From Bacteroidota bacterium (GTDB lineage Bacteria > Bacteroidota > Bacteroidia > UBA8524): 64,000 bases of DNA. The stretch is taken from assembly GCA_008933805.1 (NCBI GenBank), contig WBUH01000007.1, positions 1 to 64,000 of the forward strand, read 5' to 3'. Each line of letters begins with the position of its first letter. Within the stretch, counting starts at the first letter, position 1. The position numbers and the translations under genes were made by a program. Below are positions 46,906 to 64,000 of this stretch, piece by piece. The notes beneath the pieces were generated by a model. That model was not told where the DNA came from, ran no database searches, and was given only the letters and a program-made list of their open reading frames with translations.

Positions 46906-47099
46906 GTAGCGTGTTACCATTGCAAAGATACAAACTTAGCTTATTTGCACCCCTCTTCCGCTACAAGCCAAGCTACAGACTTGCGAGAGAGGGATATTTG
47001 AACGTTAAAGAAGCTGTAACTGTTGGCTAAACAAAAAGCCCCGATTTCTCGGGACTTCTATAACTTTTTTATACAAAGGTGATAATTTGGAACACGACC
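46906..47099 (-). repeat. Composite repeat: RAYT upstream region joined to outer half of the cassette repeat
   Basis: The left part, gtgttaccattgcaaagatacaaacttag to gacttgcgagaga, equals the promoter and upstream palindrome of the RAYT elements (TATCTTTG -7 at 46930-46923). The right part, from ccccgatttctcggga to ggaacacgacc, equals the outer half of copies 1-3, with the REP palindrome of that unit missing. It ends 6 bases before the stop codon of the 47106 gene. Confidence 0.75.
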
Positions 47100-47105
47100 G
47101 TTCGC

Positions 47106-47471
47106 TCAATGCTGGAGGTCTCTTTTTTCCATCAAACTTAATTTGGGAGACTTAAAAAACAGTGTAATATATTTACTGTCTACTGTATTTACAAGCATTT
47201 CCAACTCCTTATTATCGTTATATTTCATATACAAAATTAAACTGAAAATACTTATATACTTATTTAAGTCATGTCGCTTTTGCTCATCTCCAAGCATACA
47301 TTTTGCGTACTCCCAATCTTCAATAATCCAAATACAAGGAGCATCTATGTATTCATCCTTAACCTGATCATAGTGCCCCCCAAAATGAACTTCAATTTTT
47401 TTATTATCTAAATCATAGCAAAATTTGCATACTCGCTCGTCGTCAAACGAATATCCTATTTTTTTTTTCAT
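47106..47471 (-). CDS. Putative orphan immunity protein, 121 residues
   Basis: A soluble protein whose middle reads KKIEVHFGGHYDQVK and PCIWIIEDWEYAKCML, a pattern (h-x-V-x-F-G-G ... I-x-x-W) that I associate with small immunity proteins near polymorphic toxins, though I cannot fix the family. It begins 11 bases after the stop of a gene stump (47483-47587) and ends at a repeat unit, the same order as in the 18.5-21.5 kb cluster. Likely cytosolic. Confidence 0.55.
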   Translation of the reverse strand: MKKKIGYSFDDERVCKFCYDLDNKKIEVHFGGHYDQVKDEYIDAPCIWIIEDWEYAKCMLGDEQKRHDLNKYISIFSLILYMKYNDNKELEMLVNTVDSKYITLFFKSPKLSLMEKRDLQH

Positions 47472-47482
47472 ATTATACTCAT

Positions 47483-47587
47483 TTATTTTCTAAAAATATG
47501 AGCCGCAGGGCTTTTATAATTAACTTTATTCAAGAAAATATCATAACTATTTCTCTCATATTCCAAGTGCATATGATTGAAAGGTGT
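47483..47587 (-). pseudogene. 3' stump of a lost toxin-like gene, fused to a REP repeat
   Basis: After the repeat the minus strand reads TPFNHMHLEYERNSYDIFLN then KVNYKSPAAHIFRK and stops 11 bases before the next ATG. The NHMHLEY...N pattern would suit the end of a nuclease toxin. The longer frame from 47821 passes through the repeat and is not a real gene. Confidence 0.5.
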
Positions 47588-47755
47588 TCCCCCCACTCTC
47601 ACAACTCTGTAGCGCAGGCCGTGCGACAGCGACTTGTGAGTGTATCTAAAATAAGTTTGCAACTTATTCATTCTTTTAAAGTAAAACAATATGCTCCCGA
47701 TTTCTCGGGACTTCCATAACTTTTTTGTACGCAGGTGATGATTTGGGTCATAACC
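47588..47755 (-). repeat. Repeat unit with REP-like palindrome, copy 4
   Basis: Full-length unit like those at 19238-20609 but more diverged (gtagcgcaggccgtgcgaca in the palindrome; gggtcataacc at the outer end). The hairpin tcccgatttctcggga and the aataagtttgcaacttatt repeat are intact. Confidence 0.85.
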
Positions 47756-47802
47756 CTTCTTTAGAGCCGTTTTAAGAAACTTTCTCGTGCACAGACATGA
47801 AA

Positions 47803-47838
47803 AACCATCCTTAAATTTCATGAAACTTAAGGATGGTT
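47803..47838. repeat. 36-bp near-perfect palindrome
   Basis: aaccatccttaaatttca followed directly by tgaaacttaaggatggtt: 18-bp arms with one mismatch and no spacer. It is flanked by As on the left. It could be a bidirectional terminator, or an insertion-site end in the debris between cassettes. Confidence 0.7.
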
Positions 47839-47855
47839 GAAGTATAGTCTTTTGA

Positions 47856-47943
47856 AATTTAGACAGTTAAAAAGCCACCAACTATTTTTGACCACTGCCC
47901 GGGACTTCCATAACTTTTTTATGCTCAGGTGATAATTGGAACA
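47856..47943 (-). repeat. Duplicated gene tail plus outer half of the cassette repeat
   Basis: Bases 47856-47899 match 20001-20045 with one substitution and one missing A; that segment is the last codons (GSGQK-stop) and 3' flank of the membrane-protein gene at 20028. It runs straight into gggacttccataacttttttatgctcaggtgataattgg, the outer half of the repeat unit, which ends at the stop of the 47944 gene. Confidence 0.8.
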
Positions 47944-48474
47944 CTACCCGATAGCGGTATATTCTACTTTGCCTATCTTTTTAAATACTTCAATATTACC
48001 ATTTTGGTTAAATTGAGATGTTTCCACAGTATTACCATCTGAAATTGGTGTGGAAATAATATAATCATTTTTAAAATGGATTTTTACACCAAACGGAGCA
48101 TCATTACCTTCTATCCCAATTAACTCTATTCCTATAATTTCAGATTCTACAATTTCTTTGAATAGTTCACAATCTGTTACATCAAAATACTCATTTACTA
48201 TTATACAACTGTCATCTTCAGAATTCATCCACATTTTAATTTTAGGATAAAAATCTTTCCAAGAATATTTATTCTCAGGTAACGACTGATGAAATATATG
48301 CGGTAACCAAAGTTCATCTTTATCTACGCTTATTACAAATAATTTACTTGGTTCATCATTGAATACAAAACCAAATGAAATATCAATATCGGCTTCCTTT
48401 TCTTCTCCCCACGGTGTCCAAACAACAAGAAATAACCTGCTAACTGTTTTTCTAAGAAGTTCTCTAAATTCCAT
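47944..48474 (-). CDS. Immunity protein for the adjacent Rhs-tip toxin
   Basis: A 176-residue acidic soluble protein (FGFVFNDEPSKLFVISVDKD, LPHIFHQSLPENKYSWKDFY, SEIIGIELIGIEGNDAP). It starts 6 bases after the toxin stop on the same strand, the usual arrangement for a polymorphic-toxin immunity gene. It should bind and block the toxin in the cytosol. I do not recognise a named family. It is followed immediately by the repeat fragment, as the orphan immunity genes are. Confidence 0.65.
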   Translation of the reverse strand: MEFRELLRKTVSRLFLVVWTPWGEEKEADIDISFGFVFNDEPSKLFVISVDKDELWLPHIFHQSLPENKYSWKDFYPKIKMWMNSEDDSCIIVNEYFDVTDCELFKEIVESEIIGIELIGIEGNDAPFGVKIHFKNDYIISTPISDGNTVETSQFNQNGNIEVFKKIGKVEYTAIG

Positions 48475-48480
48475 ATAAAA

Positions 48481-49665
48481 CTATTTTATTGGTTTCGCAA
48501 GATTATACCAGTTATTTGATGTTTTATTAAGCAATGTAATAAAAGTACCATTGGCTTCTGTAACCAACATCTTACCATTACTAATATACATCATTGCTTT
48601 CTGATGTCCATGCCATTGACCAACACGTGTCAGGGCTGGGTTAGCACTATTTAAAAGCTTATTTGCAGCACCCCTTAATTGAGGTAACATCATTTGAAGC
48701 TGTTGTGGCGTATAGCCACCAAATCCTAAAGCATCAGCATGTTTTATTAGATGTCCTTTTGCATTATTTCCCCAACTTAATATTTTACTACTCGGCATAG
48801 CAATATTTCGTCCTAATGCCTTTGCCATAACATTCCCTAGTAGCTGTGCTCCTTTAGTTACAGGAGGTATAGGCACAAACCACAACTCAGGGTATACTGG
48901 TTCCATACGCCCGCTTGCAGGCCCTTTATTTACATACTTACCTGAAAAGACGTTATAATCTCCATTAGCTAACCCACTTTCGTAAATACTTTCAAAATCT
49001 TTATCAGGGTCATAATCATCATCACGACGATCTTGTTCAAAAATAAACCCTAGATATTCTTCAATTACATCAAGTGTTTCAAAATTATTTTGAAAGTCAC
49101 TTGGGTTATAATCTGGGTTTGGCGCGCTGTATGAATACTTTACCGAAAATGTTATCTTTTCTCCTTCATAATTAACATTTGACACCTTACCACCTGCAGA
49201 ACTTACTTTTTCTTTAAAATCTGCAAAACGGTTATACCTACTCCTTCCTGTAACACTGTTCCAAAATCGTTGAAACCCATTCTTTGGTTCTTCATAGTCT
49301 CCATTTGGATCAACAAAATAGATTGGATTATCAAAAAATGCCCGATAGGGACTCCAGCCCGGGGCGATGGAAGATTTAGGGTCAACATTCCACCTTCTAC
49401 CCAGCCTTGTATCATACTGCCAATACTCTGCTGTATTACTATTACCCGCACCGGAAACCTCATTATCCTTCTCTTGGCCATTAAAGCCGAACCGATACGA
49501 CTTCGTGCGTTTTTTAGCCTCAAATAAGCCGCCCTTCACAAATAATAGTTGCGGCTGTACAGAATTATATTTGATAGCTGGGCATCCCATTTTGAAGCAA
49601 TGTAATAAAAACTTATGAAATACATATCTTGCTACATCAGTTAATATCCAACAAAAAATGAGCAT
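48481..49665 (-). CDS. Orphan Rhs-tip toxin (Rhs core end plus C-terminal toxin domain)
   Basis: Residues ~50-120 are the end of an Rhs repeat-associated core: YRFGFNGQEKDNEV, YDTRLGRRWNVDPKS, WSPYRAFFDNPIYFVDPNGD. The hundreds of YD repeats that normally precede this are absent, and the first ~45 residues are unrelated, so this is a displaced tip. The longest frame starts at 49665, overlapping the divergent neighbour by 8 bases; an ATG at 49590 is an alternative. The C-terminal ~90 residues (GHLIKHADALGF, His305-Lys308-His309, then MLVTEANGTFITLLN) resemble the plan of BECR-fold RNase toxins; this is a tentative reading. The immunity gene follows. Without an Rhs shell it may be silent until recombined onto a full-length rhs gene. 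Confidence 0.75.
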   Translation of the reverse strand: MLIFCWILTDVARYVFHKFLLHCFKMGCPAIKYNSVQPQLLFVKGGLFEAKKRTKSYRFGFNGQEKDNEVSGAGNSNTAEYWQYDTRLGRRWNVDPKSSIAPGWSPYRAFFDNPIYFVDPNGDYEEPKNGFQRFWNSVTGRSRYNRFADFKEKVSSAGGKVSNVNYEGEKITFSVKYSYSAPNPDYNPSDFQNNFETLDVIEEYLGFIFEQDRRDDDYDPDKDFESIYESGLANGDYNVFSGKYVNKGPASGRMEPVYPELWFVPIPPVTKGAQLLGNVMAKALGRNIAMPSSKILSWGNNAKGHLIKHADALGFGGYTPQQLQMMLPQLRGAANKLLNSANPALTRVGQWHGHQKAMMYISNGKMLVTEANGTFITLLNKTSNNWYNLAKPIK

Positions 49666-50875: not shown

Positions 50876-51190
50876 ATGCAGGTATTTTTCTCTGACCAAG
50901 CTTTTCTTGACATGGAAGGGGTACGTGAATACTTTGATGAAGTAGCCCCACATAAAACGGATGAAATAGTCCTCTCAATAGTTGACCGGGTTTTTCTACT
51001 CGAAGAATACCCATTATCCGGCCCCGAAGAACCATTTTTAAAAAGCATAGGCTTAGACCGCAGATTTTTGGTAGAAGGGAACTATAAAATAATTTACAGG
51101 ATTGAGGATAACATCTACATTACCCAAGTATTCGATGCGCGACAAGACCCCTTAAAAATGGTTGATAATGAGAATGCTCAACCTATTTAG
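50876..51190 (+). CDS. ParE/RelE-family toxin
   Basis: A 104-residue protein with the RelE/ParE fold: VFFSDQAFLDMEGVREYFDE at the start, a helix pair, FLLEEYPLSGPEE, then strands RRFLVEGNYKIIYRIEDNIY and ITQVFDARQDPLKM. The R-x-x-x-V-x-x-Y-x-I-x-Y core and the final DARQDP motif are typical. Family members cut ribosome-bound mRNA or poison gyrase; which of the two cannot be told. Its stop codon overlaps the convergent gene by 4 bases. Confidence 0.88.
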   Translation: MQVFFSDQAFLDMEGVREYFDEVAPHKTDEIVLSIVDRVFLLEEYPLSGPEEPFLKSIGLDRRFLVEGNYKIIYRIEDNIYITQVFDARQDPLKMVDNENAQPI

Positions 51191-52196: not shown

Positions 52197-52214
52197 TAAT
52201 TTTTTAAAATTATT
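52195..52214. terminator. AT-only palindrome between convergent genes
   Basis: aataatttt-tt-aaaattatt, 9-bp arms, lies exactly between the stops of the 51774 and 52214 genes, so it could end transcription in both directions. The stem is weak because it holds no G or C. Confidence 0.4.
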
Positions 52215-53128
52215 CAATCACCCAACGGATGAAACCTATCTATAATCTCCTTTGCTTGGTCATCATCCGTTCTCTTATATTTCACTGTAGTGCTGGGGTA
52301 TTTATGGCCAGCCATTAGCTGCACCTCATCCAACGGGTGCTTATATACATTCAGCCAGTTGGCAATAACACTTTTGCGTATTTCCTGCGGGGATAATACC
52401 TTATCAGGAAACAATACCTTTAAGGGTTCTATCATACCATGCACACCGTCCGGCGTTTCAACCTGCCCGCGAATAGTAATAAACAACGTGTCGCTTTGTA
52501 AAAGCTGTAACAGGTGCGGGCGTTCTTCGTGGATATACCGATACAATAAAGTAGCCTGCATAGGGGTAAGCGGTAATCTGCGCGATGCGGTTTTACGGCC
52601 TGCCGGAAAATATACCGTGCCGTTATCAAAGTTAATATGTGCTACCTTCATCCGGCATAATTCATCACTGGCAGGGGCTTGATATATCAACAGGGAAAGT
52701 ATGGCCTTGTTGCGTAGTTCCAAATGGGTGTACCTATTCTCCCGTGCATCAAGCAACGAGTGTAATTCTTCGGGAGTAAACAATACATTGAAGTTTACAC
52801 CTTTTGCCCGTGTGCCCTTTATTACTATCCCTTTACACGGGTGGTCGGTGCGTACCCCTGTCTCATAGAGATAATCGTAATACCGTTTGAGCGAAGCGAG
52901 TTTACGGTTCACAGAATTACTCACCCTGCCGTCTTCACGCGTGTAATTGCGCTTTATAGAAGACAAGTAACGTACAATATCCTGGTACTTGTATTGTTCT
53001 GCATTGGGATTGGTACGCAAAAAGTGGTTGAGGTCAAACAAATAACCGTCTGCGGTTTTTGGGGTATGAAAGGCCAGTAAATACTGCCGTAACGTATGCA
53101 AAAGTTGTTCGAGTTGTATGTCGGTCAT
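52214..53128 (-). CDS. Tyrosine recombinase with degenerate active site
   Basis: A 304-residue protein of the phage-integrase/Xer family: SAM-like N-domain (to ~105), then a catalytic domain. Retained: Lys179 (AGRKTASRRLPL), Arg251 (PQEIRKSVIANW), His275 (LMAGHKYPST) and Tyr284 (TTVKYKR). Missing: the first Arg, where QAPASDELCRM replaces the usual GLRxSEL, and the His of HxxR (Gln248). It may be catalytically impaired and act as a DNA-binding partner of the intact recombinase encoded 5 bases upstream on the same strand. Two adjacent recombinases are known in Bacteroidota mobile elements. Confidence 0.85.
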   Translation of the reverse strand: MTDIQLEQLLHTLRQYLLAFHTPKTADGYLFDLNHFLRTNPNAEQYKYQDIVRYLSSIKRNYTREDGRVSNSVNRKLASLKRYYDYLYETGVRTDHPCKGIVIKGTRAKGVNFNVLFTPEELHSLLDARENRYTHLELRNKAILSLLIYQAPASDELCRMKVAHINFDNGTVYFPAGRKTASRRLPLTPMQATLLYRYIHEERPHLLQLLQSDTLFITIRGQVETPDGVHGMIEPLKVLFPDKVLSPQEIRKSVIANWLNVYKHPLDEVQLMAGHKYPSTTVKYKRTDDDQAKEIIDRFHPLGD

Positions 53129-53133
53129 AGGGT

Positions 53134-54060
53134 TTATTTTTGGGATTGTATGAGTAGCTTTTGTTTCCTACGTTGGATGTATATATGAGAACTATCAATA
53201 TTGGAATGTCCTAAGAAACTTTGCACAAAATCTATATCTGCCCCTCTATCTACCAAGTGCGTGCTGATGCTTGCCCGCAAGCTGTGCAGGGACAACTCTT
53301 TTTTAATCAGTTCCTCGCTACCTGTTTTTTCTATCAGTTCTTTTAAGCGTTCGTTCATGTGGTCGCCTGTCATTCGTTTACCTCTGTCGTTTACTAAAAA
53401 CGCATGGGTAGGTATTTTGCCGTTCTCCACATAGCGGGTGCGTTCTGTATTGAGGTAGGTTTTAAAGTCCTGTATAACGGCTTCGCACAATACCACACTC
53501 CGTGTTTTTCTGCCTTTACCTTCCCGCACGGAAAGCCGTGCTTTGGATAACTGCACATCGTACATATCCAGCCAATGTATTTCTGTGCGGCGTAAACCTG
53601 CACCATAAGCACAGGATAGAAGGGAACGGTCGCGATACGTTTCGCAGACTGCGTATATCTTTTTTATTTCTTCTTCGGTTGCTATTTGGCGGGGCTGGTA
53701 TTTCGCCCGCAGTTTTTTAGGAAGCAGGACAATGGCATCAAGCGCACCTGTTTCCAATAAAAATTCAAAGAAGCTGCGGATGGCTAAAAAGTGTGTGCCT
53801 ACAATACTGCTTTGGCTCAGTCCTCCCTCCCGTCGCCTATTGGGGCGGGTTTCTAAATACCCTGCATACAGGTTTACATGGCGGGGCAATATATCCTGTA
53901 CCTGTTCTACTTGGTTTGTTTCCAACCATGAGAGGAATTCAAGCAGGGCGGATTTATACGCACGGGCTTGCCCACCGCTTAAATTCTTCGCATCAATCAT
54001 CACCAAAAAATCAGCAAGGTGTTTTTTATACTGGGGATTTTCTATTGTAAAGTGTGCCAT
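53134..54060 (-). CDS. Tyrosine recombinase/integrase, complete active site
   Basis: A 308-residue protein with all expected residues: Arg157 (YGAGLRRTEIHWL), Lys182/Lys185 (GKGRKTRSV), His259-x-x-Arg262 (SLHSLRASISTHL), His285 (LGHSNIDSSHIY) and Tyr294. The N-terminal SAM-like domain (residues 1-110) is normal. It cuts and rejoins DNA at an attachment or recombination site through a 3'-phosphotyrosine. It is the middle gene of a minus-strand operon (small ORF, primase/AAA+ protein, this gene, degenerate recombinase), so it is the probable integrase of the accessory region. Confidence 0.93.
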   Translation of the reverse strand: MAHFTIENPQYKKHLADFLVMIDAKNLSGGQARAYKSALLEFLSWLETNQVEQVQDILPRHVNLYAGYLETRPNRRREGGLSQSSIVGTHFLAIRSFFEFLLETGALDAIVLLPKKLRAKYQPRQIATEEEIKKIYAVCETYRDRSLLSCAYGAGLRRTEIHWLDMYDVQLSKARLSVREGKGRKTRSVVLCEAVIQDFKTYLNTERTRYVENGKIPTHAFLVNDRGKRMTGDHMNERLKELIEKTGSEELIKKELSLHSLRASISTHLVDRGADIDFVQSFLGHSNIDSSHIYIQRRKQKLLIQSQK

Positions 54061-54113
54061 GTGGTGTACCGGGTTTGAGTAATTGGCGTATATATTTTTA
54101 AAAACACGGGACG

Positions 54114-56351
54114 CTACGCCTCCGACTCTTTGGGGTCAAAAGAGTTAGCGTCTCGCGGCGGTGTTCTGAGGACCTCAATCTGTGCATACAGGTTAGATTT
54201 GATGCTTTCCCGTAATTGTTGATAGTCGTCTGTATTAGTGAGGTAATAGAAGTATTGTTTGTTCTTATAACCGCCTGTAACGGTGATGTATTCAAGGCTA
54301 CGCAACTCAAACAAGAAGCGCGAAACGTGGGCTTTGGATAATCCAAAAGCCAAGCGGATTTCCCGCTGGGTAAAAGCTGCCTGCTGTCCACCTTGTTTTT
54401 CTTTCAGGTAGGTTTTTAAACGTTCATAAAACTGGCGCAGGGAATTATCAAAATCATCGGCCTTTAATACAATGGCATCAAAAAATATCCTGACGGCAAG
54501 CTGTATGTCGTCTATTTCAGCAATGATGCGGTTTTTATCATCGCTTTTTCGTTGGTACTGGTTCACGTTCGCCACTAACCCGATGAAGGAGTTAAACATC
54601 GGCGCCAGCCTGCGCTGGTCTTTCAACTCTTTGGGTAGGGTAATATATTCGGCGTATGGGTTAATGACTTCACGGGCCTGCAACATCCGAACGATGTCAC
54701 GGATTTGTTGCCGGGCAAGGTATTGTTCTTCTTTGTCTATTTTTCCTGCTGATAGTTTGGCTAAATAGGCATTGATGCGTTCGGTCTGCTCCGGGCTTTC
54801 ATCCACACTGAAAAGCAAGGAACGGGAAGCGTTATCGAAGTAAATGGTTGGGTTGGTAGTGGCTGCCAAACTGGAAAAGTGCCCCTGTACCAGTTTTACT
54901 TCTGCCCTGACGTTGCCGAATTTGTCTTTTTTCGATAGGGAAGAATACAGCTTTTTAAAGCTGATAAGTTCCCGTAAGGCATACAATGCTTCGCGCGGCA
55001 TCCCGTCCATGTCCTGTATCACCATTATTTTGTTTACCAGTTGTTGCTCGTCAAAATGAAAGAAGGATTTAGCGCTGGCTCGGGTGATTTGTAAAATATC
55101 ATCTGTGGGCATACAGGCAGCAATACCGTTAATTAAATGGCTTTTGCCACTCCCACTTACCGATACAATAACAGCATGCAACGGCTCAGGCATTTTGTAG
55201 GACAGGGCGATTAAAAACAATGCAAGGCGTGTGTTTTCTTCGCCTACAATACCGCTTTTCTCTAACAAGGTGTTGATGGTTTCAAGCAGGTTGTTTTTTT
55301 GCAAGACTTCAACAGCATGGGATTGCCGTTCTGGGGTAATTTCTTCTTTAGCCCTGTTGCCTTCGGGTCTATAATCTTCAAACTGCTTTTCGCGGTGGGC
55401 TTCAAGCAGTGCAGTAAGGTCTACAAGGTCAAGGGCGATTAATTCTTCTGGTATAAACTCTTGACTGCTTAACCCCTCACTATATTTTTGCACCTGCGCC
55501 GTATCAAACAGGTCGAGTTTGCCTCTGAATTTTTTAAGGTGGGCGTTTTGGTAAAACAGGGTTACTTTCAGGGTAGCCAGGTCTTTGTCGAGATTACCGA
55601 CCACCTGCCACTCTCCGCCAAAGCTCGCCTCCAGTGTGAGTTTATGGGGGTGTACTATATAAAGGGTTCTTTGCTCTGTTTCTTCTTCTGCAAGTGCGGG
55701 GGCTTCTTGCTTTTCATCAACAGTCCCTAACGCATTAATAATGATTTCTTTCTGCACCATTGAAATGCTTTCATCAAATACCAGGCTGCCGTTTTGATAA
55801 AACGGTTTTGCTATACCGATTTGCAGGGGATTGAGCTTTGCGCCGATGGCAAACATACAAGCGGTATCAAGGTTTATCTTTCCGTCTGCGATGAAAGCAA
55901 GGCAAGCGGTAAGCTCACCGAATAGGTGCAAGGTTTTGGCGTGTGGGTTAACTGCGGGATAGGTTCCCTGTACCTTATTTAACAAGGTATCAATGGCAAG
56001 CCCTGTTTCGGTTACTTTAAGAGCCATCAGGTTTACAGGGTTGTGGTCTGTATCGTACAGTGGTAGCACCAACTGCTTTTTACCAAACCAGCGGTAGCCG
56101 CTGTTCATCACCCGAAGTAGTCTGGCGGCTTTAAGTTCTAAAGCGTACTCATCGTCTTTGCTGTGATGGGCTTTTCCGTTGTTGTAGCCTATGTCTTTAA
56201 TAGCCAAAACGTGGATGCGACAGGTATGCAATACTTCCTCCCGCACTTTATGAAAACCACTGAGTGCCTTCCTAAAGTGAGGCAATAGCTCCTTCAAAAG
56301 TTTACTAGTGTGATAAGGATTTTCTTCTGAATCGGGTAAAAGTGTTTCCAT
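54114..56351 (-). CDS. Primase-like/AAA+ ATPase of a mobile element
   Basis: A 745-residue protein. Residues ~85-200 (FGKKQLVLPLYDTDHNPVNL, LHLFGELTACLAFIADGKIN) look like a degenerate TOPRIM/primase region. No CHC2 zinc finger is present. A P-loop ATPase follows: Walker A SVSGSGKS at 397-404 and Walker B KIMVIQDMDG at 441-450, with an SSLAATTNPT sensor-like segment. Near 665-705 there is a winged helix (FTQREIRLAFGLSKAHVSRF). I recall similar proteins upstream of paired integrases in Bacteroidota, often with a CHC2 finger. A replication-initiation or strand-opening role for the element is likely. The next gene starts 53 bases on. Confidence 0.75.
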   Translation of the reverse strand: METLLPDSEENPYHTSKLLKELLPHFRKALSGFHKVREEVLHTCRIHVLAIKDIGYNNGKAHHSKDDEYALELKAARLLRVMNSGYRWFGKKQLVLPLYDTDHNPVNLMALKVTETGLAIDTLLNKVQGTYPAVNPHAKTLHLFGELTACLAFIADGKINLDTACMFAIGAKLNPLQIGIAKPFYQNGSLVFDESISMVQKEIIINALGTVDEKQEAPALAEEETEQRTLYIVHPHKLTLEASFGGEWQVVGNLDKDLATLKVTLFYQNAHLKKFRGKLDLFDTAQVQKYSEGLSSQEFIPEELIALDLVDLTALLEAHREKQFEDYRPEGNRAKEEITPERQSHAVEVLQKNNLLETINTLLEKSGIVGEENTRLALFLIALSYKMPEPLHAVIVSVSGSGKSHLINGIAACMPTDDILQITRASAKSFFHFDEQQLVNKIMVIQDMDGMPREALYALRELISFKKLYSSLSKKDKFGNVRAEVKLVQGHFSSLAATTNPTIYFDNASRSLLFSVDESPEQTERINAYLAKLSAGKIDKEEQYLARQQIRDIVRMLQAREVINPYAEYITLPKELKDQRRLAPMFNSFIGLVANVNQYQRKSDDKNRIIAEIDDIQLAVRIFFDAIVLKADDFDNSLRQFYERLKTYLKEKQGGQQAAFTQREIRLAFGLSKAHVSRFLFELRSLEYITVTGGYKNKQYFYYLTNTDDYQQLRESIKSNLYAQIEVLRTPPRDANSFDPKESEA

Positions 56352-56959: not shown

Positions 56960-57152
56960 TTGTACTCAGAACTTAAAGAGGTTTGGGGCACTTATCTTTA
57001 GCAAGCCCGATAAGATTTCACCTGACACTGTGCCCGTCTGCAATCAACATCCAGGGGTTAACGCCCTTTAAACAGGTGCGTTGCAATTGCTTCAGTGCCC
57101 CCTCCTCACAAGTTTCTTTATACTTTACGCCGCTTACCAAGCGGCTTTTTTG
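56960..57152 (+). ncRNA. Candidate structured RNA with its own terminator
   Basis: The region ends in a strong plus-strand terminator but holds no plausible plus-strand gene. GGGCAC (near 56985) can pair with GTGCCC (near 57030), enclosing CTTATC/GATAAG; ggtgcgttgcaattgcttc lies further on. catttg...tatattg near 56930-56960 is a partial promoter match. I checked it against tRNA, tmRNA, SRP and 6S landmarks and found no fit. The right boundary is set by the terminator; the left one is a guess. Confidence 0.35.
57129..57152 (+). terminator. Intrinsic terminator without an upstream plus-strand gene
   Basis: GCCGCTT-acc-AAGCGGC followed by six T. On the minus strand there is no U-run after the stem, so it acts on plus-strand transcripts only. 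Confidence 0.8.
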
Positions 57153-57279
57153 TTTCAAAGAGCAATACAAAGATAAGAGGTAAACTTTAACAATCAATAG
57201 AATAGTACAAAAATCAACTAAATAGTTTTTTATTGTATGTATCATAAATTTTTATCAAATTTGTACTAAATTATAAGAA

Positions 57280-58467
57280 ATGGCAAATTTTAAAAATCCC
57301 ATGACTGTATCCTTTGGGCTTGCTCTGAAAAAAACCAGAGACCTTTTGGCAATTTCAAATGCAGATGAATTTGCTAGGGTACTTAATCTTGGTACAACCT
57401 ACTATCGGTCTGTTGAAGCGGGGATAAATAATTTATCGCCTTTCCACAGTTTAAAAATCATTGAAGCTTTTCAAAGAAGTACCAGCAACCGTAAAATCAG
57501 CTATGAAGCATTATCAATATTTTTGACTACCCTTTCTTATATTGAATCTTTGGTAAAAGCGGATGAAAATAACATTACGACTGAGGAAAAATATATCTTT
57601 TATATAAAAACCATTAAAGAGCAGGCAGATTTAAAACTCAGCGCATTACTTAGTCTTTTTCAATTAATTATTGAAAAAAGCCTTCAAGGAGATGCGGAAA
57701 TGGATACTTTAATCCATGAAACAAAAACTGAAAAACAAGTATGGGAATATCTCACCAATTACCACTCGTTTAATAAATCATCTAGTGAAATACAAAGCTC
57801 GATAAGTGAAAATTTCTTGAGCGACGTTCCTACTATATATTTTGACTTTTTAAGTGATACTAAAGAAAGCCTAATGCGCTTACCTGTGAGAATAGGGTTT
57901 AAGGGGTTATGGCAATGGGAAGAGCGCAATCAGGATAATTTTGTTGAAATGATTTGTCTCATTAAAAATGCTGAAAATGTCGTCAGTTGGGAGAATCTAA
58001 AACGGTATAAATACAAACACCTATGGAAGGATTTTGAAATTGCTAAATTCATGTGTGTTACAAACCTCCCAAAATCAAAGCTTTACTCTGATTTTAAAAA
58101 AAACCTGCATAAATCATTAAATGACAGTAACGAAATAACTCTATTGAAAGAGTTTGATGACAAAGTGGCTAAAGTTAAGTTTGAAACACTCCCTGACCCA
58201 TACTTGAAAAATAACACTGAACAGATAAACGACGTTCTCACAGGTAATAGTTACGACCCAGATGAACCAGGAAAAAAAACTTACGATGCTATTTGGATAT
58301 TCACAATGAAAAATAAGCAAAGTATAGGATTTTTGGCGGTAATGGATGACAAAACCAAGCAACTTGTGGAAGGAATAAGTTTAACATATAATGAATCAAT
58401 AAACAAATTGGAGAGTTTAAATTCTTTATGGGCCTCGATTTCTGAAACAAACAATGGCAACAAGTAA
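57280..58467 (+). CDS. HTH-containing protein, first gene of the cyclodipeptide operon
   Basis: A 395-residue protein. The N-terminus (FGLALKKTRDLLAISNADEF, ARVLNLGTTYYRSVEAGINN) resembles an XRE/Cro helix-turn-helix. The remainder is a long helical-to-mixed region with no family recognised (LPVRIGFKGLWQWEERNQDN; DAIWIFTMKNKQSIGFLAVM at the end looks like a GAF/PAS-like strand pair). It is translationally coupled to the cyclodipeptide synthase (14-base overlap). It probably regulates the operon, perhaps sensing the product; this is inference. It lies 128 bases after the terminator at 57129. Confidence 0.6.
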   Translation: MANFKNPMTVSFGLALKKTRDLLAISNADEFARVLNLGTTYYRSVEAGINNLSPFHSLKIIEAFQRSTSNRKISYEALSIFLTTLSYIESLVKADENNITTEEKYIFYIKTIKEQADLKLSALLSLFQLIIEKSLQGDAEMDTLIHETKTEKQVWEYLTNYHSFNKSSSEIQSSISENFLSDVPTIYFDFLSDTKESLMRLPVRIGFKGLWQWEERNQDNFVEMICLIKNAENVVSWENLKRYKYKHLWKDFEIAKFMCVTNLPKSKLYSDFKKNLHKSLNDSNEITLLKEFDDKVAKVKFETLPDPYLKNNTEQINDVLTGNSYDPDEPGKKTYDAIWIFTMKNKQSIGFLAVMDDKTKQLVEGISLTYNESINKLESLNSLWASISETNNGNK

Positions 58468-59152
58468 ATATAAAGTGAGAATATATGATGTTGTTCCTGA
58501 AGATAAGCGAAAGGAAATCTATGAGTATAGTGCTTGTTTAGGGGTAAGTATAAATAATGTTAATTATTGGGATAACGAAAAACTAACGGCACTATTATCT
58601 TGGATAAATTCAAGATTTAGTGAATGCGCTATCGTAATTGCCGATAAATTACACAGGCACAATGTTAAAATATTTAATAATAATAGTGAAGAAGAAGGGA
58701 TAGAAACAGGTTTAAAATTAGGAAATGAACTTAGTAAAAATTTCTTGACAATAGTGTCTTCATTGACAGACTGTAAGTTTAGAATATATAGATGGCAAGA
58801 TATAGCTAACGAGAAGGGAACTAAAGATGAATTAACAAAAGTTTATCAGGCGTATAGTACTAATTCAAGTTTTGCCAGAGTAATTGAAAAATCTGCTGAG
58901 GAATTTTTATTTCGGCAAAAAGAGAAAGGACTTGAACTTAAAGTTCGTCATGAGGAGGCCATTAAATTATCGTGTGATTATATCTTAGAGGAGATGGCGT
59001 ATTTTGGAGTTGCTGTAAATTTAGGTTATGTGGTACAGCTTTATCCGGGTACACAGTTGCAAATTCTAAAACTTTTAGGTAATGGTAGATATCAAGATAT
59101 TAATCTTCACTTAAGTAACGGATTTTTTGTTGATTTAAAAATAAAAAAATGA
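58454..59152 (+). CDS. tRNA-dependent cyclodipeptide synthase (CDPS)
   Basis: A 232-residue, cytosolic, class-Ic-aaRS-like protein. Key parts align with AlbC: SACLGVSINNVNY holds the nucleophile Ser32 (AlbC Ser37), LLSWINSRFSECAIVIADKL matches the next helix-strand, and CDYILEEMAYF holds Tyr176 and Glu180 (AlbC Tyr178, Glu182). VVQLYPGTQ has Tyr197-Pro198 at the subfamily site. The enzyme takes two aminoacyl-tRNAs and makes a cyclic dipeptide (2,5-diketopiperazine) through a Ser-linked intermediate. Length is normal. It overlaps the HTH gene by 14 bases and the transporter gene by 4 (ATGA). The amino acids used cannot be read from the sequence. Confidence 0.85.
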   Translation: MATSKYKVRIYDVVPEDKRKEIYEYSACLGVSINNVNYWDNEKLTALLSWINSRFSECAIVIADKLHRHNVKIFNNNSEEEGIETGLKLGNELSKNFLTIVSSLTDCKFRIYRWQDIANEKGTKDELTKVYQAYSTNSSFARVIEKSAEEFLFRQKEKGLELKVRHEEAIKLSCDYILEEMAYFGVAVNLGYVVQLYPGTQLQILKLLGNGRYQDINLHLSNGFFVDLKIKK

Positions 59153-60624
59153 CAACAATAGTACTGGTAGCAATTCTCCTTTCCTCAATTTTTTATATAG
59201 GAATTGGGCTTGTTCTTGGCAAGAACAACAAATCTTTGGGTGATTTATTCCCTATACTTGGTAACCGAAACGCACGGGTCGAAACCTCTAATGAATTTAG
59301 TAAAAGTACAGTCGCAACGACCGTCAGCCTCGCTACTATTGTTTTAGCATATTTTGAGTTAGCAGGATATTTTGGTTTATACCTCTTATGGACGGCTGTT
59401 ACAACGGCAATAGGAATGCTGCTGCTCCAATTATTTATTAACCGTATATGGGAAAAGCTCAATAAATTTGACCACCGGCCAACAATGCATGAGTTTCTTG
59501 GCAGAGAATACAATTCTCCGTCAATGGCCTTTATTGCATCATTGTGTACCAGCTTGGGTTTTTTGCTTATTTATGCCACTGAGTTAATTGTGGGCTCAAA
59601 ATTTCTCGCGGGCCTTGTTCCCCAAATACCCGAATGGACTACTGTTATTTTTTTATCCTTAGTGGGCTTTGCTTATACAATGATTGGCGGTTTCAGGGCT
59701 GTTATTAAAACCGACCAATGGCAAATGGTCTTTATCTGGTTCCTTATAATATCATTGGGCGGGTATTACATTTACCACCTCATACAAGTCCCCGATATGT
59801 CTGCTGAATTTGCAAAAGCCCCGAAAGGGGTTTTTGACTTGTCTTACCGACCGGGTCTTGTTTATTTTCTTTTTGGTATTGCAATAATGAACATTCCTAC
59901 ACACATCGCTAATATGTCTGTATGGCAGCGCATTAGCGGAGCCCAAAATCCTGAAACGGTTACTGAAGGTGTCAAAAAAAGTATTTGGGAAATTTTCTTT
60001 TCGTGGAGCTTGATTTCGTTATTAGCTTGCTTTGCCTATTTAATTGTAACTCCTGCCAGTAACCAGTCTCTTTTAATGGAACTTCTTACTGTACTTTCAA
60101 CCACCATAATTGGGAAAATTATATTGTTCATAGTAGTACTAGGACTTTTCGGCGCAATGTTATCAACTGCCTCAACAAATTTATTAGTAGTGTCCCATAC
60201 ATTATCTGAGGATGTATTTTCTAAATTCAAAAACAAAACTGTAATTGAAAGGGCCGATTCTAAACAAGAGTTGATTAAGTCAAGAATACTGTTGGTTGTA
60301 TCGGCGTTATTGGCGGTTTTTCTTGTAGAAGGTCTAAAATATTTTGATTTCAGTATTGCAGATTTGGTGTTTGCCATTTATGGTGGCTCACTGTCCTTAT
60401 TCCCGCCAATTTTATTTGCATTACTATTAAATGAAAATAAGCTTAAAACTTTGTCTTCATTTGCAAAATACTCGGTAATACTTGGCTTTTTATGCGGTTG
60501 GGGTGCTGCCATCTATGGAAAAATAATTGGTGATGGCAACCTGATTTTTCTCTCTCCGTGCCTGAGTATAGCTGCCTCAGCTTTGGTGTTGGGTATTGGA
60601 TATTGGCTCAAAAAAAATAAATAA
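59149..60624 (+). CDS. Sodium/solute symporter (SSS) family transporter coupled to the CDPS
   Basis: A 491-residue protein with about 13 membrane helices. The SSS hallmark MIGGFRAVIKTDQWQMVFIW (the GG-x-x-A-V-x-x-T-D-x-x-Q motif) is clear, and FGAMLSTASTNLLVVSHTLS in TM8 has the conserved Ser/Thr residues of the sodium site. Its ATG overlaps the CDPS stop, so both are translated together. SSS proteins normally import small solutes with sodium. Here it may take up the precursor, recapture the cyclic dipeptide, or export it; family knowledge favours import. It ends 4 bases from the convergent repressor gene. Confidence 0.9.
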   Translation: MTTIVLVAILLSSIFYIGIGLVLGKNNKSLGDLFPILGNRNARVETSNEFSKSTVATTVSLATIVLAYFELAGYFGLYLLWTAVTTAIGMLLLQLFINRIWEKLNKFDHRPTMHEFLGREYNSPSMAFIASLCTSLGFLLIYATELIVGSKFLAGLVPQIPEWTTVIFLSLVGFAYTMIGGFRAVIKTDQWQMVFIWFLIISLGGYYIYHLIQVPDMSAEFAKAPKGVFDLSYRPGLVYFLFGIAIMNIPTHIANMSVWQRISGAQNPETVTEGVKKSIWEIFFSWSLISLLACFAYLIVTPASNQSLLMELLTVLSTTIIGKIILFIVVLGLFGAMLSTASTNLLVVSHTLSEDVFSKFKNKTVIERADSKQELIKSRILLVVSALLAVFLVEGLKYFDFSIADLVFAIYGGSLSLFPPILFALLLNENKLKTLSSFAKYSVILGFLCGWGAAIYGKIIGDGNLIFLSPCLSIAASALVLGIGYWLKKNK

Positions 60625-60628
60625 GCAA

Positions 60629-60976
60629 CTACCGTTTCTTTCTACCTCTTTTAAGGTCGCTGTGTTCCTTCAAAAACACATCAATGGTCATTAACAGGCT
60701 TTTGCGTTTTTCTTTCGGCAAAGCTTCAATGGCCTGTAACTTATCTAATAAAGATTGATTTGCCTTTGTCGTATCTCTAAAAAGTTCGGCAAGGGGAATA
60801 GCCAAGGCAACCGCCACTTTTTCAAGTGTTTTCACATTCGGCGGTGTTTTGCCGTTCTCAAGTTCGGAGAGCCTGGCTTGCATTAAGTCCGCTTTTTCAC
60901 ATAACATCTTTTGGGTTAACCCCTGCGATTTGCGTATGCGCTCAATGTTTTGCCCGATGATTTTCTCAATCTCCAT
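60629..60976 (-). CDS. XRE-family repressor
   Basis: A 115-residue protein with a textbook helix-turn-helix: IGQNIERIRKSQGLTQKMLC, EKADLMQARLSELENGKTPP, NVKTLEKVAVAL. A helical C-terminal tail follows (LLDKLQAIEALPKEKRKSLL) and ends in a basic patch. I start at the ATG at 60976, because a perfect -7 element (60989-60982) lies directly before it; longer frames from 61054 or 60994 would begin upstream of or inside the promoter. It probably represses its own gene and the divergent one at 61076 through the inverted repeat at 60989-61013. Confidence 0.88.
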   Translation of the reverse strand: MEIEKIIGQNIERIRKSQGLTQKMLCEKADLMQARLSELENGKTPPNVKTLEKVAVALAIPLAELFRDTTKANQSLLDKLQAIEALPKEKRKSLLMTIDVFLKEHSDLKRGRKKR

Positions 60977-60981
60977 TACGG

Positions 60982-61013
60982 CAAAGATATTCATTCTTAC
61001 CTGTTGAATGAAT
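60982..61013 (-). promoter_or_regulatory. Repressor promoter with inverted-repeat operator
   Basis: On the minus strand TATCTTTG (60989-60982) is a perfect TAnnTTTG -7 element only 5 bases before the ATG at 60976, implying an almost leaderless transcript. Next to it ATTCATTC (60989-60996) and GAATGAAT (61006-61013) form a perfect 8-bp inverted repeat with a 9-base spacer, well placed for binding by an XRE dimer. A -33 TTTG is not seen. Confidence 0.55.
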
Positions 61014-61075
61014 ACGCCCTCAATCCGGTAAACCGATTTCCATTTTCTAAACAATCACTTTATAAATCAAATTTT

Positions 61076-61856: not shown

Positions 61857-63623
61857 ATGAAAAAGCTCTTTCAAAAATCTAAGCAAGCTGCCCAGAAGCT
61901 CATCGCAGCCACCTTTCAAAAGGAATTGCTCACAGCAAGAGCCGCAGCAGCAAGAGAAGCATTGTTCACCGATACCGGAAAAAGAACCCTTGCCGATGGC
62001 ATCGGCAGTATCGCGGCGGCGTTCAATTCGTTATTGGTAAACTGCTACCAGCTCCTCTTTTCTTTTACAGTTTTTACGTTATCCCAAGTACAGGCACAAA
62101 TAGAGGACTTAAAAACACTCCGCGATGAATACGAACGGGAACGGGCACTACATCAGGCCAACCTAAACGGCTATGCATCTTTGTCGGGTGTACTGTTGCG
62201 GTCTTTCCTGTTTGTACTGACGGCAGTGGTTATCGCCACTGGAGACGTAACGATACTTTCAAGTGCTTTACAACTGTTTACTACAAACCTGCTTTCTGCT
62301 CTATTACTTTCCATAGGGGTATGTGTCTCGTTGCTACTTCTGCCCGCGCTTTCCTGCATCCTTGCACAGCGTGCCTCATCGGTTAGGTGGCGAAGACTTA
62401 TAGAATGGGGAAGCTTCTTATTTGTATCACTAATTTTCGTTTTGCTTATTTATGCACGAAGAAGTTTTGATGAGGCGACTGGGCAAGAACAAGATGGGTC
62501 AGCCTACCTGTTTTATTACGGGTTCAATTTACTCAGCTACGTGGTGTTACACCTGATGGCCAAGCTGTTGTTGCTACCTGTACTTAATGATTTGAAGGAA
62601 GCCTGGGCGCGCCATCTGGAAAAAAGGAAAATAAAAAAACTGACCCACACCATCAATCACATTAACAACCAAATCGCAGCCAAACAGGAAGAAGCCGACC
62701 TGCTTATTAATGCCGATGCTGTGGCCGTTTTAATGGAAGAACAAATCGCCCGCCTGTATAGCCAGGTGGTGGCAGCTTTCCGCGAAGCCTACCGCACCCA
62801 TGCACGTTACGGTTTTCCCGATTGGATGGCTGATGAAGAACCCAATCTTGATTTTATCGTAAAAGGCAAACAGCCGTTGAAAGCTACTTCGGCTTCGCAG
62901 GATAGGTTTACCAATACCCGTACGTCTATTGGCTTTAAAATAATAGGGCTTACTGCTCTTATCGGGCTTTCTTCCTGTTCCCTAAATGAACCCAAACCGA
63001 CACGATTTGTAGGGATACTGTATGACCAAACCGCCTACGATACGTTGCACGTAACAGGTAGGGATGTACTAAAACTCTCCGGCCTGCATGAAGACCACGA
63101 CCGCGGCGTGGAAGTGCGCATAGTAACAATAACTGCCAAACAGTTTTCGTCTATGTGCACGTATTCACTTGAAAGCGTATCAGCCCTCACCTCTAATGCT
63201 ACAAAAAGGCCCGGTGCGGTAGCTTTGTTTGAGCGAGGGATAGATTCTTTGATGGATGCTATACCTTCTGTAAGTAACGCATTAAAAGACAGCTCACGTA
63301 TTTTTTATAAACTCTCGCAGGTGGTACGGGAGTTTGTAGCTTGTTCTTTATGCAGTGAAGGGGTGATAGTTGCGCAAACGGATATGATGGAATTCACGGG
63401 GTTATTTTCTTCGTATGCTGATATAAACTCCCTCACAAGTCATCACCCACAGGTAGTTGAGATATTGCAAACAGCCTATCCGTTGCCAAAATTTACAAAA
63501 CCGCTCCGAATTATAATTACCCATAACCCGCCGCTTTCACAGGAGGCTGTGTTTGCGTTTATGATTGGCGTGCTTAAAGACTACTTTGCCCGCTCGAATG
63601 TAACAGTGGAAGTCACTCCGTAG
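61857..63623 (+). CDS. Membrane/coiled-coil protein fused to a lipoprotein-like domain
   Basis: A 588-residue protein. Residues 1-110 are helical (coiled coil TLSQVQAQIEDLKTLRDEYE). Four or five membrane segments follow (~115-135, 140-170, 180-200, 218-240), then a coiled coil (~250-290, KLTHTINHINNQIAAKQEEA). At 357-376 a second hydrophobic stretch ends LIGLSSCSLNEP, an excellent lipobox (Cys374) placed mid-protein, followed by a globular domain (RFVGILYDQTAYD, somewhat like the first strand of a VWA fold, to the end). This looks like a lipoprotein gene joined in frame to a membrane protein, although no internal Met restarts it. Not recognised as a whole; likely part of the element's envelope machinery. 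Confidence 0.6.
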   Translation: MKKLFQKSKQAAQKLIAATFQKELLTARAAAAREALFTDTGKRTLADGIGSIAAAFNSLLVNCYQLLFSFTVFTLSQVQAQIEDLKTLRDEYERERALHQANLNGYASLSGVLLRSFLFVLTAVVIATGDVTILSSALQLFTTNLLSALLLSIGVCVSLLLLPALSCILAQRASSVRWRRLIEWGSFLFVSLIFVLLIYARRSFDEATGQEQDGSAYLFYYGFNLLSYVVLHLMAKLLLLPVLNDLKEAWARHLEKRKIKKLTHTINHINNQIAAKQEEADLLINADAVAVLMEEQIARLYSQVVAAFREAYRTHARYGFPDWMADEEPNLDFIVKGKQPLKATSASQDRFTNTRTSIGFKIIGLTALIGLSSCSLNEPKPTRFVGILYDQTAYDTLHVTGRDVLKLSGLHEDHDRGVEVRIVTITAKQFSSMCTYSLESVSALTSNATKRPGAVALFERGIDSLMDAIPSVSNALKDSSRIFYKLSQVVREFVACSLCSEGVIVAQTDMMEFTGLFSSYADINSLTSHHPQVVEILQTAYPLPKFTKPLRIIITHNPPLSQEAVFAFMIGVLKDYFARSNVTVEVTP

Positions 63624-63958: not shown

Positions 63959-64000
63959 ATGAAATTCGAAGACTTCTTAAAACTACTATATGAGATTATC
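63959..64000 (+). CDS. Start of a gene cut by the right window edge
   Basis: ATG at 63959 opens MKFEDFLKLLYEII and continues past base 64000. The codon usage and AT-rich leader fit the preceding genes. Nothing can be said about function. Confidence 0.45.
   Translation, partial: MKFEDFLKLLYEII

Follow-up and report, generated by a model that had tools for sequence, protein, structure and literature searches.

The window analysed here, the whole stretch of 64,000 nucleotides, carries on its plus strand between positions 57280 and 60624 three uninterrupted, co-directional open reading frames (hereafter referred to as the trio), all of which are intact. These encode a predicted regulator, a cyclodipeptide synthase (CDPS) and a sodium:solute symporter (SSS). 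The three genes and the features preceding them are as follows.

57129..57145, plus strand: terminator-like hairpin followed by a run of T, ahead of the trio (consensus scan; 7 pairs, 5 of them G-C)
57203..57268, no strand assigned: candidate operator, TAGTACAAA at 57203-57211 with its exact inverse TTTGTACTA at 57260-57268, just upstream of ORF1
57280..58467, plus strand: ORF1, predicted regulator or sensor, 395 aa (sub-cut-off HTH_3 match; orphan C-terminal part)
58454..59152, plus strand: predicted tRNA-dependent CDPS, apparently of the XYP subfamily, 232 aa (TIGR04539, PDB relatives, alignment)
59149..60624, plus strand: divergent SSS protein, 491 aa, 13 transmembrane segments (PF00474)

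ORF1 overlaps the CDPS gene by 14 bp, and the CDPS gene overlaps the SSS gene by 4 bp (ATGA). The coupling of the three genes through these overlaps, proposed in the first-pass annotation, was confirmed from the ORF coordinates and, as both overlaps run in one direction, the trio is argued to form a joint operon, the genes of which would be translated together. The G+C contents of ORF1, the CDPS gene and the SSS gene are 33%, 31% and 38%, respectively, whereas the recombinase and ATPase genes to the left of the trio have 45% and the membrane-protein gene at 61857-63623 to its right 46%. With values of 31-38% against about 45%, the trio therefore looks like a separately acquired cargo.

Family scans of the neighbouring genes detected no tailoring enzyme on either flank of the trio, as the first-pass annotation had also reported. 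This lack holds for the neighbourhood of the trio, and a tailoring enzyme could possibly be encoded elsewhere in the genome. According to a review of 2014, sodium solute symporters and regulators have been recorded near CDPS genes, and bacterial CDPS genes as a rule have one or more tailoring-enzyme genes beside them (PMC4159871). The trio shares with such clusters the proximity of the CDPS gene to an SSS gene and a regulator, and differs from them in lacking the adjacent tailoring enzyme.

Features of the three predicted proteins

The CDPS scored 69.7 bits against the NCBIfam model TIGR04539 (curated cut-off 45) and 31.4 bits against Pfam PF16715 (cut-off 27). Its best relatives of solved structure, 5ocd (1.8e-21), 9j61 (4.2e-18) and 9gun from Porphyromonas gingivalis (1.2e-9), are without exception CDPSs; 5mlq is a further PDB relative. 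In the alignment with 5ocd, 9j61 and 9gun, to which it is 26-29% identical over the aligned length, residues Ser32, Tyr176, Glu180, Tyr197 and Pro198 are invariant, which upholds the earlier assignment of the first three as conserved positions. The catalytic residues of AlbC are Ser37, Tyr178, Glu182 and Tyr202 (PMC7566563), and correspond to Ser32, Tyr176, Glu180 and Tyr197 in the window CDPS. XYP enzymes are marked by basic beta2 and beta7 strands and by an L(R/K)FKK tRNA-binding consensus (PMC7566563); the C-terminus of the window CDPS reads LKIKK, which is near this consensus as judged by eye, and the Tyr-Pro pair that replaces Tyr-His in this subfamily is present as Tyr197-Pro198. The catalytic residues, the Tyr-Pro pair and the basic C-terminal strand together place the protein in the XYP subfamily, of which it is apparently an intact member. 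It has in common with the three solved enzymes the catalytic Ser, Tyr and Glu, the Tyr-Pro pair, a length of about 230 aa and the basic C-terminal strand, and differs from them in being set in a mobile element without a tailoring enzyme. Prediction of the product from pocket motifs was abandoned, as these are poorly defined for XYP enzymes: the positions used for the pocket come from NYH enzymes, with the warning that they may not be valid in the XYP subfamily (PMC5816076). Single-sequence structure predictions gave mean pLDDT values of 38 for ORF1 and 35 for the CDPS.

The SSS protein matched PF00474 with 39.2 bits (cut-off 22.8) and has 13 hydrophobic segments, in line with the approximately 13 transmembrane segments taken as the mark of the family, and the earlier designation of this gene as a solute symporter is thus borne out. 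It is nevertheless a divergent member: one of its own relatives scores 174 bits where it reaches 39. Members of the SSS family act as importers, with transport coupled to cations. A Ser-Thr pair in an LSTAS stretch of the protein resembles the Na2 site of PutP and is treated as a lead only. The best relatives among 375 Bacteroidia genomes are 24-29% identical over most of the length, and no other relative of the protein was detected elsewhere in the same genome. Several of the nearest relatives (L007-L020) are encoded beside an M20 peptidase, or else beside an Ala-racemase-like protein together with a GNAT acetyltransferase, neighbours that hint, loosely, at amino-acid-type substrates. This association recurs in Bacteroidia as a conserved operon of its own, perhaps for N-acylated or D-amino acids.

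ORF1 matched PF01381 (HTH_3) with 19.7 bits, below the cut-off of 23, and over residues 16-68 only; the remaining approximately 325 aa had no match in Pfam, NCBIfam, PADLOC or PHROGs, and the match of the HTH-like stretch in PADLOC was negligible (E 0.0039). Neither the 375 Bacteroidia genomes nor the 223 Bacteroidota genomes searched contained a homologue, the single weak match (in G506) being located inside a TonB receptor and rejected as chance. The label of predicted regulator given by the first-pass annotation is a fair one, while the evidence behind it amounts to one sub-cut-off HTH_3 match. At the curated cut-off the protein does not fall into the XRE family, and it is best called HTH-like, a weak assignment. 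The sequences TAGTACAAA and TTTGTACTA upstream of it lie 48 nt apart and have no further copies in the 64-kb window; as two copies were seen against 1.1 per window expected by chance, and were noticed post hoc, they may at best be weak candidates for operator half-sites. Terminator-like sites number 7 in the region against 2.9 expected, a count which by itself is no evidence of function.

Distribution of the synthase and search for further trios

Searches with the CDPS models in draws of 395 genomes from the phylum and 395 from the class matched the genome of the window only, which is consistent with horizontal acquisition, and none of four relatives of this genome from the same family has a CDPS. 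The pattern scans, which covered about 85,000 genomes and, separately, viral contigs, yielded no confirmed relative; such scans need near-exact short stretches and miss distant CDPSs, and none was recovered by an alignment that included the P. gingivalis CDPS. Phages and plasmids had no CDPS detectable with the window's own query. These searches found neither a homologous trio nor a close homologue of the CDPS or of ORF1, so that the gene order is the sole link between the three proteins.

This bears on an alternative in which the SSS protein is functionally unrelated to the synthase (an amino-acid symporter, for example), the three genes are chance neighbours within a cargo, and a tailoring enzyme acts in trans. 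The unequal G+C contents of the SSS gene (38%) and the CDPS gene (31%) are in keeping with it, as are the failure to find a recurring trio and the lack of a CDPS in the short flanks fetched with the nearest SSS relatives. The co-directional overlaps of 14 and 4 bp favour a joint operon instead, and the genome has no other detected relative of the SSS protein; chance association is considered unlikely.

One plasmid was inspected for a second trio. The plasmid of Ca. Endohaliclona, the renieramycin symbiont (MK748464.1; L082:3896-4708), encodes a CDPS-like protein annotated as 'hypothetical' and 43% identical to the 5ocd CDPS (tblastn). An HTH protein and a PAS histidine kinase are encoded next to it, with no tailoring gene directly adjoining. 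As no SSS gene is among these neighbours, the plasmid was rejected as a second trio; the SSS protein and ORF1 of the window are unlike the neighbours compared. Signalling roles were proposed for CDPS clusters with PAS domains in a survey of 2018 (PMC5767969).

The surrounding mobile element and its relatives

The trio is flanked by genes of a mobile element, some of which lie beyond the window on the same contig.

52214..54060, minus strand: two tandem tyrosine recombinases, XerB-like (52214-53128) and XerA-like (53134-54060) (PF00589, 8e-17 and 4.9e-31)
54114..56351, minus strand: ATPase/replication-type backbone protein, 745 aa (relatives in Bacteroidia, beside Xer-type recombinases)
60629..61054, minus strand: XRE-type regulator of the backbone, transcribed towards the trio (HTH_3, 1.2e-13)
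61857..63623, plus strand: backbone membrane protein with no family match worth naming (Pfam, NCBIfam and PHROGs scans)
63959..64000, plus strand: start of a type IV coupling protein gene that runs to contig position 65425 (L037:7959-9425; PF02534, 3.5e-54)
contig 65813-66709, beyond the window: MobA/VirD2-type relaxase (L037:9813-10709; PF03432, 1.2e-12)

The first-pass annotation had placed the trio beside an integrase module. The integrases are indeed nearby, and this description understates the setting: with integration and replication genes to its left and the coupling protein and relaxase to its right, the trio lies inside the element. A small protein occupies the MobC position between the coupling protein and the relaxase. 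Integrative mobilizable elements are defined by an integrase and a relaxase, usually with a coupling protein, and lack the complete set of type IV secretion genes. Two recombinases, a T4SS-DNA_transf match and a Relaxase match were seen here, and the element is predicted, from these gene families, to be integrative and probably mobilizable. No direct att repeat of at least 15 nt was found between the likely flanks in the stretches compared. The backbone XRE-type regulator and ORF1 are unrelated by BLASTP. Beyond the relaxase, the contig encodes an SF1 helicase and an ArdC-like protein; the helicase (791 aa; L037:10900-13275, contig 66900-69275) has a PADLOC match (1.8e-41) to the helicase part of MkoA.

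Relatives of the 745-aa ATPase were present in 21 of the 217 Bacteroidia genomes, this one included, and adjoin one or two Xer-type recombinases in the loci examined. The same three-gene XerA-XerB-ATPase backbone occurs in many Bacteroidia genomes with other cargo, several copies carrying defence genes, and no CDPS is present in those copies against which the trio proteins were compared. The module (52214-56351 in the window; L059-L067 and L073-L081) extends over many Bacteroidia families, often beside Rhs/YD-repeat C-terminal fragments, and may represent a widespread family of elements for which Rhs arrays are targets or travelling companions.

In the closer relatives, the ATPase side, which is the side of the trio, often holds genes of defence type. 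Next to the ATPase gene, one locus (L061:2027-12903) encodes an RmrA-like protein and a type II restriction-modification pair as well as two CD-NTase-like, CBASS-type oligonucleotide cyclases and a 4TM effector, and others have a cytosine methylase with PDC-M41B (L062), PDC-S06 (L059) or CARF6 (L060). PADLOC matches below 1e-20 were obtained for 10 of 20 proteins on the trio's side and for none of 10 on the opposite flank, where weaker matches comprise three defence candidates (1e-11 to 1e-17) and one TPR protein; the 20 proteins were picked partly by eye, 6 of the 10 matches come from L061, and the scan did not take in the upstream side of L063-L066. The defence genes on this side are accordingly to be read as a lead, without statistical weight, that makes a defence role for the trio worth testing.

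An anti-phage or anti-mobile-element system of this kind would have ORF1 sense invasion, the CDPS make a messenger or drain aminoacyl-tRNAs, and the SSS protein act as the effector, a layout like that of synthase-plus-membrane-effector signalling defence. It is favoured by the cargo of the relatives, subject to the selection of flank proteins and the weaker matches on the control flank described above. Against it, no trio protein gave a meaningful PADLOC match or could be assigned to a defence family, no paper found connects CDPSs with phage defence beyond one incidental mention of both terms, and mobile elements hold many kinds of cargo. Such a system is judged quite improbable. Were the place of the trio among the cargo indeed a sign of defence, bacterial immunity would gain a new type of small molecule. 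A related reading, in which the CDPS would be the messenger-maker of mobile defence or signalling, with ORF1 as an HTH sensor of invasion or of a ligand, an unmodified cyclodipeptide as the messenger and a symporter-fold receptor or effector, is given a very low probability; if true, it would represent a peptide-based counterpart of the cyclic-nucleotide signalling systems.

Probable function of the trio

The best explanation for the locus as a whole, which is given about an even chance, is that of a self-contained accessory operon, carried as mobile-element cargo, for an unmodified cyclodipeptide with its own recapture and regulation. The trio would constitute a cargo operon of an integrative, probably mobilizable, Bacteroidota element. 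The XYP-type CDPS is predicted to join two aminoacyl-tRNAs drawn from the translation pool into an unmodified cyclodipeptide, both activity and product being deduced from sequence. ORF1, the product of the first gene, would control expression of the operon, probably through binding immediately ahead of its own coding sequence, and might respond to the cyclodipeptide or to another cue. The sodium-driven SSS protein, to go by its family, would carry the cyclodipeptide, or a product of its breakdown, across the inner membrane, import or recapture being likelier than export given the cation-coupled uptake typical of such proteins. The simplest function would be that of a small diffusible signal or metabolite with recapture and regulation, and the suggestion in the first-pass annotation that the free cyclodipeptide is itself the signal or nutrient, recovered or exported by the symporter, is plausible.

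The cyclodipeptide could instead be an antimicrobial or growth inhibitor, with the SSS protein and/or ORF1 serving in self-protection or control, as in a competition cassette borne on a mobile element. Toxic CDPS products are usually tailored in the cases described, whereas the trio is without a tailoring enzyme; it has no MFS or ABC efflux pump either, and SSS proteins are normally importers. Carriage as cargo of a mobile element would suit such a cassette, and a Rhs-like fragment lies a few kb from the trio at 48481-49665; among resistance-type genes near CDPSs, those for efflux pumps are the most frequent (PMC5767969). On balance a competitive role appears rather unlikely, and the accessory operon with recapture of an unmodified cyclodipeptide is preferred.

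The CDPS family is already known; what is unusual is the minimal mobile set, in which tailoring is lacking and the regulator is an orphan. As nearly all the CDPS clusters studied modify their product, a minimal, movable unit of regulator, synthase and transporter would make the role of a bare cyclodipeptide in its producer testable with three genes in a laboratory host.

Two minor features were observed to the left of the integrases. A ParE-family toxin-like gene is located at 50876-51190 (PF05016, 3.7e-6), and a 64-nt repeat occurs in three copies, 69-84% identical to the reference copy, at 47040-47953, lying inside or next to small ORFs close to the Rhs-like fragment.
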